Source: Seleniivibrio woodruffii (GTDB lineage: Bacteria; Chrysiogenota; Deferribacteres; Deferribacterales; Geovibrionaceae). From it: a stretch of 64,000 bases of DNA. Made by a program: the position numbers and the translations under genes. The stretch spans positions 213,106 through 277,105 of the forward strand of contig NZ_SMGG01000003.1 in the NCBI RefSeq assembly GCF_004339245.1, written 5' to 3'. Below are positions 53,193 through 63,114 of this stretch, in pieces (positions within the stretch are counted from its first letter, which is position 1; every line of letters begins with the position of its first letter). The notes under the pieces are model-generated. The model searched no databases and had not been told where the DNA came from. It saw nothing but the letters and a program-made list of their open reading frames with translations.

Positions 53193-54974
53193 ATGTTTTT
53201 CACCACTAAGTATAAAGTAACGGTTGCAAACAAAAATATAGTTCTGGAGGTCAGGTCCGGCTCAAACCTGTACAAGGTTCTTCGTGAACACGACCTGATA
53301 GACAGAATGCTCTGCGACGGCAGCAGCCAGTGCGGAAAATGTAAGGTCAAAATAATCGGCAGCGACATAAACAAACCCACAAAAAAAGAGAGGCTTGTTC
53401 TCGCTGAATCCAGCCTGGATTCCGGAATCCGTCTGGCATGCCAGTATTCCGTTAAGTCCGATATTAAAGTCGATACTCAGGAACCCTCAAAGCGTGAGAA
53501 CGTCAACCCCGGCATAATCAGCATGAAGGTGGTTAAGAAGACCGGAGAGGTTGAGGAGAACGAGTTCAAAAGTTTCCTCAACCCAGACCTGTTCGCTCCG
53601 AAAACAGAAACGCCCTCCCCTTCAGTACGATCTCAGGAACCGGTTCAGGAACCTGAACTCATAGTTGACGAATCCATAGACGATGAAGAGGAAACCTATG
53701 ACAATATTGTTTCACATGAAACATTTGCTTTTTCATCTCAGCCCACCGGCATAACCCCTCCCCCTCAGCCGGAGATCAGGGAAGTGACTCAGGATGTTAA
53801 AGAGGAACCCGCACAGCCGGAAGAAACTTTTAAGATAATATCCCACATTAACAACGGTCTGGAAAAGGAGGAGTCCTACAGCAATGACGGTCTTCTGCTG
53901 ATCCAGCTTCCCGACGGCATTCAGTATTATCACTACAGCGCAGGGATAGGCAACATCGCCTCTAAGGGTATGATAAAGACTGGCGAGCGTCTTGAAACGC
54001 TTCTTGAAAAGCAGCTGGTTTCTGATTTCATCTATAACAACATTAACGCAAAAGACATAGAACGTGTGATAATCATGCTGGACGACTGCTATTTCGAAGG
54101 CAAGGAGATGTTCAATCTGGTTATCTACACCTCGATAAACGTCGGAACCTTCCTTATCGAAGTTCTGCAACCGATGCAGAACCACAGGGATATGGTTCGT
54201 TTCATGCGCTTTGTAAACCAGACCCCGGGCAAACGTCTGCTTATTCCGCTGGATTCTCTGGAAAAGGCCTATTTCCTCGACGAGGGCAACCTGTTTGAAC
54301 TTGAGGCATCCAACACTGGATATGACGGTCTACTCTCTCTCAGCGAGTTCAACGGAAAGAACCCTGTGATAGGTCTGAGCGACGACCTTCTGGAAACAAC
54401 AATAAGAGATACTTTTCATCTGCCCGATTCGATATCCTTTACGGTATTCTTCCATACAGCGGTGATATTCATGCGCTCCGGACTCACCGACAAAAGGCTG
54501 CAGCTCAGGGAACGTTCGGAAGTTATGGATCTTATGCCTCTTGAGATAACCGTTAAACTGGGCAAACACGACGGACTTAAACGTTTTAATATCTACCGCA
54601 AACAGGGCTGTGACCTGTATATCGATCAGAACGCTCTGAACGGTCTGAACCGTTTCAGACTGTTCATCAGATCTGTGATAAGCTATGCGGAAAAGAAATT
54701 CAGCAATATCGACAATATAGTCTTCTACACTCTCACAGACAGCATGACACTGGCCGAGGATCTTCTCGCCCTGTCTGCCGTTCCCAAAAAATATGAGAAA
54801 AAACTGAAAACCTTCTCCGGAGACCCGTCAATCTACGGCGTACAATTCTTCCAGGAGAAGGATATCGAAAACTACTTTAAGAAGAGATTCGGCACTCACG
54901 AGGTTATAAACCTCGACGAGGATGTGGTTTTCACCGACACCCAGAGGGAGTGCGAACAGAAGATTATTTCCTGA
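53193..54974 (+). CDS. [2Fe-2S] ferredoxin domain fused to a degenerate RACo-like protein
   Basis: A 593-residue protein. Residues 1-100 form a plant-type ferredoxin domain with all four ligands (CDGSSQCGKC, then ACQ near residue 88) and the GSNLYKVLREHDLIDR lead-in seen in the activator RACo (DUF4445). An acidic, Pro-rich linker (about 105-215) follows. The remaining 370 residues lack clear ATPase phosphate loops, but the segment around NALNGLNRFRLFIRSVIS and IDNIVFYTLTDSMTLAEDLL is laid out like the end of the RACo ASKHA domain. No corrinoid-protein genes are near. A redox-sensing or activating role is inference. It stands alone after mscS and converges on the receiver gene with an 11-base overlap. 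Confidence 0.7.
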   Translation: MFFTTKYKVTVANKNIVLEVRSGSNLYKVLREHDLIDRMLCDGSSQCGKCKVKIIGSDINKPTKKERLVLAESSLDSGIRLACQYSVKSDIKVDTQEPSKRENVNPGIISMKVVKKTGEVEENEFKSFLNPDLFAPKTETPSPSVRSQEPVQEPELIVDESIDDEEETYDNIVSHETFAFSSQPTGITPPPQPEIREVTQDVKEEPAQPEETFKIISHINNGLEKEESYSNDGLLLIQLPDGIQYYHYSAGIGNIASKGMIKTGERLETLLEKQLVSDFIYNNINAKDIERVIIMLDDCYFEGKEMFNLVIYTSINVGTFLIEVLQPMQNHRDMVRFMRFVNQTPGKRLLIPLDSLEKAYFLDEGNLFELEASNTGYDGLLSLSEFNGKNPVIGLSDDLLETTIRDTFHLPDSISFTVFFHTAVIFMRSGLTDKRLQLRERSEVMDLMPLEITVKLGKHDGLKRFNIYRKQGCDLYIDQNALNGLNRFRLFIRSVISYAEKKFSNIDNIVFYTLTDSMTLAEDLLALSAVPKKYEKKLKTFSGDPSIYGVQFFQEKDIENYFKKRFGTHEVINLDEDVVFTDTQRECEQKIIS

Positions 54975-55329
54975 AAAGCTCAGTGATAGCTGCGTCCAGA
55001 TCTGCCGCACGGACAGGTTTGTTCAGGTATACGCAGGCGCCGACGTTTTCGGCCTCTTTAAAGGATTTGTATGAACCGAATGCTGTGATAACTATCACTT
55101 TCGCAGCAATATTTCTCTCTTTCATCTTTTCAAGGAACTCAAGACCGTTCAGCTTGGGCATTCTCAGGTCGGTTATGATAAGGTCATACCCGCCATTTTC
55201 CGCCTTAAAGAGTCCGTCCAGTCCGTCCACAGCCAAATCGACCTCATAGCCGCCCATTTTCAGAATTTCGGCATATCCCAGCCTTGTGTGTTCTTCGTCA
55301 TCTACAACAAGAATTTTAAGCGTTTCCAT
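54964..55329 (-). CDS. Single-domain response regulator
   Basis: A 121-residue receiver without an output domain: VVDDEEHTRLG, phospho-acceptor in IITDLRMPKLNG near residue 53, and VITAFGSYKS, with the lysine in NKPVRAADL. Its ATG overlaps the stop of the tandem-Hfq gene by one base (TAATG), so the two are translationally coupled. The YxxxxEIL N-terminus resembles receivers of NtrC-type regulators rather than CheY. Its kinase is unknown. Confidence 0.93.
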   Translation of the reverse strand: METLKILVVDDEEHTRLGYAEILKMGGYEVDLAVDGLDGLFKAENGGYDLIITDLRMPKLNGLEFLEKMKERNIAAKVIVITAFGSYKSFKEAENVGACVYLNKPVRAADLDAAITELFRK

Positions 55330-55853
55330 TATCTCTCGCCGTCGTATTTAATAATTTCCCCTGTCTGATAGATGGGGTATATGGTTGAAATAGTATTTTT
55401 ATAGACCAGCTGCTGACGTCCCTCAAATGATGTCAGAAGTGTATAATTGTCGAAACCGATGAGACTTCCTCTTATCTTTACACCGTTTATAAGGAAGCTG
55501 ACTATGGGTGAGCGTGATTTACGCACTTCGTTAAGAAAGATATCCTGCATGGGGGGTCTCGTGTGCTTCGGGTGTCGTCCCTGATGTGCGCTGTAGTAAA
55601 TCTTTGAGATAAAGTCGATATCAACAACTGTCCTCGCAGATGCTACAGTAGCTATATCATTCTTAGATAAGAGAATTTTAAGTTCTGCGTCATCCAGAAG
55701 GATGTGATACGGGTCGAAATCCATCACCCTCCCTCTGAATCTCTCTTTGTTCTTCATAATGAACATCAGCGGAATCTTTCGTGTTCTTGCGTTGTGCATA
55801 AACACAAATTCTATCTGCGCATGAAATGATGCGCCCGAAACAGAACTATCCAT
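55329..55853 (-). CDS. Tandem (double-domain) Hfq-like RNA chaperone
   Basis: The 174 residues contain two Sm/Hfq domains in one chain. Domain 2 (about 101-162) is clearly Hfq: QDIFLNEVRKSRSPIV, NGVKIRGSLIGFDNYTLL and YKNTISTIYP, against the classical YKHAIS; Gln103, Asp135 and Lys152 are kept, but the histidine is Asn. Domain 1 (about 14-72) is more diverged: FMHNARTRKIPLMFIM, RFRGRVMDFDPYHILL and SKNDIATV; Lys is kept, and the Gln at the proximal RNA site is Glu. A basic linker (HQGRHPKHTRPP) joins them. Three chains could form a pseudo-hexamer. A GGGGAGAG site precedes the ATG, and a receiver gene follows in the same operon. Confidence 0.88.
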   Translation of the reverse strand: MDSSVSGASFHAQIEFVFMHNARTRKIPLMFIMKNKERFRGRVMDFDPYHILLDDAELKILLSKNDIATVASARTVVDIDFISKIYYSAHQGRHPKHTRPPMQDIFLNEVRKSRSPIVSFLINGVKIRGSLIGFDNYTLLTSFEGRQQLVYKNTISTIYPIYQTGEIIKYDGER

Positions 55854-56075: not shown

Positions 56076-56119
56076 TACTACGACTATATTTAAAAAATAT
56101 AAAAATAAGAGGAATGGTT

Positions 56120-57225
56120 ATGCGTTTTAAGGCAGTTAAGGACGATATTTATCCCTTCATCCAATATGCGAACAACTTTACGAGCCCTAAAAACCTTAAT
56201 ACAATTCTGCAAAATATATTGATCGAAGCTGAAGCGGACGGTGTCACGCTTAAAGCGACGGACATGCAGGTTGGGTTTTCAGGAAAGCTGGACGTAAGCG
56301 TTGAGACAACTGGTGTCGCCACCGTATCCGGTAAGAAGCTTCTTGATATCGTAAAGGAGATACCGGACGGTTCAGTAATCGATTTCTTCTTTGACGGCTC
56401 AAAGATAAATATCAGCGCAGGAAAGTCAAACTTCAAACTTTCCACTATCAGCCATGAGATATTTCCTACAATGGCCGAGATCACCCCTGAATACAGCCTC
56501 AAGATTAAAAGCCAGCTCCTTCTTGAACTCATAAAAAAGACAAGCTTCTGTATCTCAACAGACGCATCCAAGATAGAATACACAGGAGCGCATCTGGCAG
56601 TATACGGAAACAAGCTTGAAGTATCTGCAGCAGATTTTCAGAGAATAGCCACAAGCAGTCTCATGTTTGACGATGAATACGCAAATGAATTTATCATCAA
56701 TATTCCCAGAAAGACTGTTGTAGAACTTATAAAAATCCTCGATCATGACGAGTATGTCGAAATAGACACAGACAGAAAGCAGATAATATTCAAAATAGGA
56801 ACCATTCAGATATATTCAAAACTCATTGAGAAATATATCAAAAGCATCACTAAACTGTTCTCTAACGAATTTCCGCTTACTGCAAAGCTTAAGCGTTCCG
56901 AGTTTCTCGACGTTATAAAACGTGTATCCGCAATCACAAGTGAAGTCACCCACGGCGTTGTTCTCTCATTTAAAGACGACAGCCTGACACTTTACAGCCT
57001 TGAGACCGAATACGGAGCAGGTAACGAAACTGTCGAGGATTACGAATACAAAGGAAATCCCATAGACATCATTTTCAACTCCAAGCACATGGTGGAGATG
57101 ATAAACAACATAGACACCGACTATTTCATCCTCCAGATGATAGGCGACAGAAACCCTGCCGTCATTCTTCCGGACGGCGGTGACTATAAATACCTTGTGG
57201 TTCCCATCTCTATCAACAGGTTCTG

Positions 57226-57226
<1 letters not shown>
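56120..57226 (+). CDS. dnaN: DNA polymerase III beta sliding clamp
   Basis: Ring-shaped clamp that tethers the polymerase. From the ATG at 56120 it has 368 residues (MRFKAVKDDIYPFIQYANNF). I prefer this to the ATG at 56114 because the AAGAGG site (56107-56112) is then seven bases away. The three clamp domains are visible, with ATDMQVGFSG near residue 45 and the C-terminal DGGDYKYLVVPISINRF. The stop overlaps the recF start by one base (TGATG). Confidence 0.96.
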
Positions 57227-60616
<3,390 letters not shown>

Positions 60617-60624
60617 GTGTATTA

Positions 60625-63114
60625 ATGGAAGATAAAAAACGTATTGTCGGAATATCGATAGAGGATTCCGTAAAAAACAGCTACCTTGATTATGCTATGA
60701 GCGTTATCGTGGGCAGGGCGCTTCCGGACGTTCGTGACGGTCTGAAACCCGTCCACCGCCGTGTGCTCTACTCCATGAGCGAAATGGGAGTTGAATACAA
60801 CAAACCCTATAAAAAATCAGCCCGTATCGTGGGTGACGTTATCGGTAAGTATCACCCCCACGGCGACAGTGCGGTTTATGATACTCTTGTGCGTATGGCA
60901 CAGGATTTCTCGCTGAGATATCCCCTTGTTGACGGTCAGGGTAACTTCGGTTCCGTTGACGGCGACAGTGCAGCGGCAATGAGATATACCGAGGTAAGGC
61001 TCTCAAAGATAGCCGACGAGCTTCTTTCCGATCTCGACAAAGACACGGTGGACTTCTCCCCCAACTACGACGGCTCCCTTGACGAACCCGTTGTTCTCCC
61101 CACCCGTGTCCCTACTCTGCTTATAAACGGAACCAGCGGTATTGCGGTGGGTATGGCTACAAACATTCCTCCCCACAACATAACTGAGATTATTACCGCT
61201 CTTGACTTCATGATAGACAACGAAAACTATACTGAAGAGGATATCCTCGGAATAGTTAAAGGCCCCGACTTCCCTACATACGGCCTTATCATGGGCAAAA
61301 AAGACATTATGAATGCCTACAGAACCGGACGAGGCTCAATCACCATCCGCTCAAGGATCGTTATTGAAGAGACTAAATCCGGCAAGCCTGTGATAATCGT
61401 TCGTGAGATCCCCTATCAGGTTAACAAGGCCTCAATGATAGAGAAGATCGCAGAACTTGTTCAGGAGAAGAAGATAACGGGAATCACTGACCTTCGTGAC
61501 GAATCCGACAAGGACGGTATCAGGGTTGTAATCGAGCTTCGCAAAGGCGAAAACGTGGATGTTGTGCTCAACAGGCTTTATAAATTCACTCAGATGCAGA
61601 CCTCTTTCGGTTTCAACATGGTTGCTCTGGTGGACGGAAAGCCCCACACACTCTCACTTATGCGCATTCTGCAGGAGTTCATCAAACACAGGGTGACAGT
61701 GGTTACCCGCAGAACCAGATTCCTGCTTAAAAAGGCTGAAGACAGACTTCATATCTTGGAAGGTCTGATCAAAGCCGTTGAAAACATTGATGAAGTCATC
61801 AAGACCATCAAAGCATCCAAAGACACAGCGGATGCTAAGAGAAATCTGTGCGAAAAATTCGGATTCTCCGATATTCAGGCTCAGTCCATCCTTGAGATGA
61901 GACTGCAGAAACTCACAGGCCTTGAGATTGAAAAACTTCAGGAAGAATATCAGAACACACTTAAAGATATCGAATATTTCAGAAGCATTCTGGGCAACAG
62001 ACACGTTATGATGTCGCTTATCAAAGAAGAGCTGGACGAAGTGAAAGCTAAGTACGGTGATGAGAGACGCACTGAAATAACTGCTGACGTTCAGGATTTC
62101 GAAGACGAAGACCTTATTCCCAACACTGAGAAAGTTGTGACAATGTCACATCAGGGTTATATAAAGAGCACCCTGCTCAACTCCTTCACATCACAGAGAA
62201 GGGGCGGCAAAGGTAAGACCGGAGCCGGCAGCAAGGAAGAGGACTTCATTGAAAGGATAATCGTGACCACAAATCATACACGCCTGATGTTCTTTACAAA
62301 CACAGGCAAGGTTCATTATCTGAAGGTCTACAACCTGCCCGAAGCGCTTAAAGAGGCGAAAGGCAGACATATTTCGAACCTTCTGACCCTTGAGCCTGAA
62401 GAGAAGATCGCAAGCGTGCTCCCCCTGCCTGCAGACATTGAAGGCAAGTATCTGTTCTTCGCCACAAAAGACGGCGTAGCCAAGAAAACAAGCCTCGATG
62501 AGTTCTCAAGCGGCAGAAGCGGGATCGTAGCTATCAAAATGCGTGACGGTGACGAGATCATCGCCGCAGACATTACAACTGACGAAGACCACGTTATCTT
62601 CACCAGCAGAGACGGAAAAACCATTCAGTTTTCATCTCAGGATGTCCGTTCTATGGGAAGAAGCGCAACAGGCGTCAGAGGCATGACCCTTGAACTCAGA
62701 GACTACGTTGTTTCTATGGAAGTTCTCACAGGAGATCCTTATATTCTCTCTGTAACTGCGGGCGGCTACGGCAAGCTCACCGAAAGAGAGGAATACAGAG
62801 TTCAGACCAGAGGCGGAAAAGGCGTTAAACTTTGCAGAGTAAGCCCCAAAACAGGCTATGTATGCGGAGCCAAGCAGGTTCGCCCCGGCGATGAGGTAAT
62901 GCTGATAACCAAGTCAGGAAAAACAATCAGAATAGATGTCGCAGGCATATCCACAATGGGACGTGACACAATGGGTGTCAAACTTATGGATATCGAAGAG
63001 GACAACGAGATTATATCTTTTGCGGTAGTAAAGGAGGGACAGGATAATGGCAACAGTGATGGACGGGAAGATTCTGGCAGCGAAGGTGAGAGCGGAGCTG
63101 AAACAGAAGGTTGA
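60625..63114 (+). CDS. gyrA: DNA gyrase subunit A
   Basis: DNA-cleaving subunit, 829 residues. The catalytic tyrosine is in AMRYTEVRL near residue 120, and the quinolone-region [10 protein letters not shown] and the winged-helix [13 protein letters not shown] are present. The six-bladed C-domain carries the GyrA box [10 protein letters not shown], which marks true gyrase rather than topoisomerase IV. The protein ends in a Gly/Ser/Glu acidic tail ([15 protein letters not shown]) encoded in a 68-base overlap with folD. Acidic GyrA tails modulate DNA wrapping in other species. Confidence 0.98.

Follow-up and report, generated by a model that had tools for sequence, protein, structure and literature searches.

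A second hfq gene, whose product joins two Hfq/Sm domains in a single chain, lies within the window (a 64,000-nucleotide stretch of Seleniivibrio woodruffii DNA) directly upstream of a gene for a stand-alone receiver. The double-Hfq gene occupies 55329..55853 on the minus strand, encodes 174 amino acids and has orthologues in 25 genomes. The conserved pairing of receiver and Hfq is well supported as genetic linkage, is apparently undescribed, and points to possible direct control of RNA-based gene regulation by a sensor pathway. The preferred reading, with a probability of roughly 45%, is that the two genes form a module in which a specialised second Hfq with two Sm domains is gated by a dedicated phospho-receiver.

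The chain and the Hfq motifs named in the original prediction are present on the minus strand, in the frame that runs from 55853 to 55329; the plus-strand translation of the interval has seven stops. The protein begins with a diverged Hfq/Sm domain at residues 18-76 (55626..55802, minus strand; PF17209, 34.1 bits, E 2e-8), followed by a linker at residues 77-101 (55551..55625, minus strand), a well-conserved C-terminal Hfq domain at residues 102-161 (55371..55550, minus strand; PF17209, 84.8 bits, E 3e-24) and a short tail, GEIIKYDGER, at residues 165-174 (55332..55361, minus strand), which is conserved in a 10-sequence alignment. The two halves were searched separately, and both score above the 27-bit cut-off of the Pfam Hfq profile. 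With TIGR02383 the whole protein scores 91.6 against a cut-off of 61.7, and the N-terminal half alone stays below it at 24.7. Models of defence systems gave no match to the double Hfq, and only weak receiver-type matches.

Structure prediction agrees with the profiles. The AlphaFold model of the single chain, built from a 10-sequence alignment, has a mean pLDDT of 75. One of five models was good (75.1 vs 53.6-62.0), and it serves to describe the fold of each half, not the relative placement of the domains. The N-terminal half consists of a helix (residues 14-24) and five strands (residues 28-72) with pLDDT of about 91-94; its helix begins at residue 14, before the start of the Pfam match at residue 18. 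The C-terminal half likewise has a helix (residues 102-113) and five strands (residues 116-160), with pLDDT mostly 80-90. Compared with Hfq crystal structures, residues 9-80 give Z scores of about 10-11.6 and rmsd values of mostly 0.8-2 Å, with Caulobacter Hfq as the best Foldseek match. That one chain holds two Hfq domains is thus borne out by profile, fold and conservation; residues 10-75, the segment on which it hinged, match and fold as an Sm domain by profile, AlphaFold and structural comparison (Z about 11).

The double Hfq is not the only Hfq of its cell. A search for any other hfq in the genome, proposed as a check at the outset, found one further match, a full-strength ordinary Hfq (103.6 bits) on another contig, where the gene lies downstream of mutL and miaA in a mutL-miaA-hfq cluster. 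The two-domain protein is therefore a second, specialised copy. An ordinary Hfq match is also present in all 25 genomes that encode the double Hfq, and Q8, D9 and H57 are kept in the 24 ordinary sequences compared. The C-terminal half of the double Hfq is 45% identical to the ordinary protein of the same genome and the N-terminal half 24%, which is also the identity between the two halves. In a tree of 60 columns, which bears on whether a single tandem duplication gave rise to the two halves, both stand apart from ordinary Hfq (support 0.965), but the N-terminal half nests with the C-terminal one. In one locus (L059:5310-5900, plus strand), the gene after the ordinary hfq, overlapping it by one base, is a DUF4416 gene and not hflX.

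Residues of the 25 orthologues were mapped to the numbering of Escherichia coli Hfq, and the halves were found to differ in what they keep. The C-terminal half retains Q8, D9, N13, R16, a Lys at position 17, D40, Y55 and K56 in all 25 orthologues, and G29, V30, K31 and T61 in 22-23 of them, so that its RNA sites (proximal, rim and distal) seem largely usable. Its equivalent of His57 is N, S or T throughout (Asn in the window protein). The N-terminal half keeps F39, D40 and K56. At the positions of Q8 and D9 it has E and F in every orthologue, and usually I, K, E and R in place of Y25, G29, I30 and K31; its RNA sites consequently appear mostly degraded. The Sm2 motif YKHA with its His57 is absent from all 25 proteins, where YK[NST] stands in the C-terminal half and xK[NRKQ] in the N-terminal one. 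The His-to-Asn change in the second domain and the Gln-to-Glu change in the first are as originally described, and the idea of specialised surfaces gains support from the fixation of such substitutions across the orthologues. Membership of the Hfq family rests on profile and fold, and loss of His57 marks the protein as a diverged member.

Conservation also extends beyond the domains. In the linker, an ISKxYY motif and a basic G-[RK]-x-P-[RK]-H-x-[RK]-PP motif are conserved, and residues I82, S83, K84, Y86, Y87, H97, P100 and P101 are invariant in the 10-sequence alignment. The same alignment shows E166, I167, I168, K169, Y170 and E173 to be invariant in the tail. The tail of Hfq is usually variable, unlike this EIIKY motif. 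Strong conservation of linker, tail and N-terminal half, unaccompanied by matching RNA-contact residues, suggests a role in docking a protein. Comparisons within the genus put dN/dS at about 0.01 in the double-Hfq gene and at about 0.03-0.08 in the receiver gene, values that are rough because dS is mostly above 1.

The same residues can be read in another way. Having ceased to be a lone RNA chaperone, the double Hfq might act as a modulating subunit that mixes with ordinary Hfq and is tuned by the receiver. The constant presence of an ordinary Hfq would fit, as would the degenerate sites of the N domain and the loss of His57 from the C domain. However, the C domain retains nearly all of its other contact residues, and two linked Sm domains can by themselves fill a six-member ring. 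Mixing of this kind seems improbable.

The partner gene (54964..55329, minus strand) encodes a single-domain response regulator of 121 amino acids (Response_reg, 91.3 bits). The receiver profile PF00072 covers residues 6-115, and there is no output domain. The one-base overlap of the two genes was correctly predicted: the stop codon of the double-Hfq gene and the start codon of the receiver gene share a base in TAATG (55327..55331, minus strand). The predicted phospho-acceptor, Asp54 (codon at 55168..55170, minus strand), is invariant in the 25 receivers, which also keep the other phosphorylation residues, D10, D11, T82 and K104. Two stretches are likewise invariant, EEHTR where helix 1 starts and ITAFG following strand 4. 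Among solved structures, the receiver has its best relatives in Spo0F and CheY, and it shares with CheY, Spo0F and McvR the acidic pocket, the phospho-Asp, the Thr and the Lys.

An orthologous receiver lies directly downstream of the double-Hfq gene, on the same strand, in all 25 genomes, at distances of -29 to +6 bases, the largest overlaps possibly reflecting wrong start choices. When 51 Deferribacterota genomes were searched with the receiver, the 25 partners scored 124-255 bits and the next best protein anywhere 78.4; one genome (G008) has neither the double Hfq nor the partner receiver. This gap in scores, together with the co-occurrence, indicates that the receiver forms a distinct orthologous group found exactly where the double Hfq is. 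The coupling first noted in the window is accordingly strongly supported as genetic linkage. Absences fall mostly in a few clades and look like the result of one origin with few independent losses, for which reason co-occurrence alone is weak evidence. More telling is that the two genes stayed adjacent while most other neighbours were rearranged.

These neighbours differ from family to family (names given outside the Pfam search were read from sequence). The pair has dnaN-recF-gyrB upstream in family f1; in f2 its upstream neighbours encode a dehydrogenase and a regulator of the ArsR type, and tuf or efflux genes follow downstream. It is found near plsX/fabH-like genes in f3, near moeA and a gene resembling pseudouridylate synthase in f4, and near a pheT-like gene in one genome of f8. 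No constant third gene and no adjacent kinase were seen in the neighbourhoods inspected. In the window, a convergent gene (53193-54974, plus strand) encodes a 593-amino-acid protein with an N-terminal 2Fe-2S domain (Fer2), the rest of which has no Pfam match. It stands beside the pair in four of the six families and was rejected as a third partner, being present in 47 of the 51 genomes, including those that lack the pair. On the other side, a dnaN-recF-gyrB-gyrA run (56114-63114, plus strand) lacks dnaA, which the same contig carries at a distance of about 165 kb. A link to a replication origin through dnaN was rejected in view of this distance, the presence of only two DnaA-box-like matches near the gap and a GC skew with no clear turn.

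Chance or passenger linkage, in which an ordinary duplication without special function happens to sit beside a receiver gene, is largely refuted by these comparisons and very improbable. Hfq paralogues do exist in other bacteria (PMC7074383), but adjacency has been kept in 25 of 25 genomes from six families with otherwise different neighbourhoods, lineage-specific substitutions are fixed in both halves, and the linker and tail are conserved. A functional link that involves no contact between the proteins deserves more weight, even if it seems rather unlikely. The RNA chaperone would then be co-expressed with a Spo0F-like phosphorelay intermediate of the same pathway, and the gene overlap would set their ratio. 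Spo0F and CheY are indeed the closest solved relatives, and helix 1 of the receiver, often the face that meets a kinase or phosphotransfer protein, is strongly conserved. Relay intermediates are nevertheless more often encoded beside kinase or relay genes, and the pair has no constant third gene. Control in cis offers another account of the adjacency: the double Hfq might regulate the mRNA of the receiver or of its kinase, making the link post-transcriptional instead of physical. The two genes overlap and are presumably read as one transcript, and Hfq autoregulation is known from E. coli (PMC6348989). Such strict adjacency would not be needed for control of this kind, which is doubtful at best. 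A promoter scan found five sites against 3.6 expected, a difference that carries no information.

Under the preferred reading of a receiver-gated second Hfq, three chains would close into a pseudo-hexamer of six Sm domains, in which full (C) and degenerate (N) sites alternate, giving three of each on either face. The trimer first proposed, with its two kinds of RNA surface, is plausible. The C domains would bind certain sRNAs or mRNAs, and the N domains, linker and tail could form a protein-docking surface. For this surface the receiver would be the simplest partner, being the constant companion of the double Hfq. An unlinked kinase may phosphorylate the receiver, which would then dock and switch RNA binding or annealing, allowing the sensor pathway to act after transcription. 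That the ring is in fact a phosphorylation-gated RNA chaperone, on which a two-component sensor pathway acts directly through a dedicated receiver subunit, is put forward tentatively, at somewhat less than even odds. Judged from sequence, the module is favoured by strict adjacency, the absence of the receiver orthologue elsewhere, the invariant receiver residues, the retained contacts of the C domain, the conserved linker and tail, and low dN/dS in both genes. Counting against it, the ordinary Hfq could do all of the sRNA work, and many receivers of the stand-alone type function only within relays.

Two-component systems usually influence sRNA regulation by changing how the sRNAs are transcribed, and Hfq is itself regarded as largely constitutive. 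A conserved receiver-Hfq pair, if functional, would link a sensor kinase to post-transcriptional control by a route that is direct and can be tested. If gating holds, a signal could switch an sRNA network with no transcription step. The alternation of full and degenerate Sm domains would also offer a natural way of testing what three as against six RNA sites in a ring do, something hard to arrange in a homohexamer.

Double-Hfq proteins are known from Sphingomonadales (NCBIfam NF010691/PRK14091), including Zymomonas mobilis ZMO0347, for which a three-chain ring has been proposed (PMC2877685). Like the window protein, these are single chains with two Hfq/Sm domains each, and their length is similar. 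In contrast, the window protein is a second Hfq with a receiver partner. In the one Sphingomonas parapaucimobilis protein examined, from a plasmid record (L072), both halves are canonical and YKH occurs twice, whereas the window protein has a diverged N-terminal half and has lost H57. The Sphingomonas gene precedes hflX, the usual place of hfq, and the window gene lies between dnaN and the receiver gene. Membership of NF010691 was rejected, as the window protein scores 81.8 bits against a cut-off of 270 and the Sphingomonas protein 287.4. Another known case is Burkholderia Hfq2, a longer second Hfq (175-216 amino acids) that exists beside the ordinary one (PMC7074383). It has one structured N-terminal region and an unstructured, variable C-terminus, unlike the two Sm domains of the double Hfq. 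A 2020 study placed two distinct Hfq-like proteins of four Deferribacteraceae species in a tree (PMC7074383). The second of these very probably belongs to the same family as the double Hfq; the main text of that study mentions neither tandem domains nor a response regulator. A literature search, mostly outside subscription journals, found no report of a single-domain regulator with an Hfq partner.

In the genomes searched, the family was found only in Deferribacterota. The 25 of 51 genomes of this phylum that encode the double Hfq belong to six families of one order (f1-f5 and f8). Two further families of the order (f6 and f7; G029-G048), with 20 genomes that include the single-contig G040, lack any Hfq match; f10 has a single, ordinary Hfq. 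No full-length relative was found in 334 genomes of other phyla (the 385 searched less these 51): open-frame matches are confined to the C-domain region, the best scoring 68.9 bits vs 186-329 in the true set, and two longer matches contain stops. In 398 genomes sampled from another phylum, the open frames matched were all of 80-99 amino acids; a further 396 genomes gave no match, a result that carries no weight because the search had no positive control. In plasmid records, matches over most of the double-Hfq length came from Sphingomonas only. A pattern scan of one genome per species across 84,980 species returned 11 loci, all of them in Deferribacterota and including records named Seleniivibrio, Denitrovibrio and Calditerrivibrio; because the scan relies on a pair of short motifs, more distant relatives would escape it. 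In family f9, two genomes of 1.3 Mb have an ordinary hfq and a gene for a 151-amino-acid protein (L052:4798-5253, plus strand; L053:5057-5512, minus strand) with a diverged C-terminal Hfq domain of about 36 bits. Only the C-terminal half of this protein aligns with the double Hfq, and no receiver gene lies beside it.
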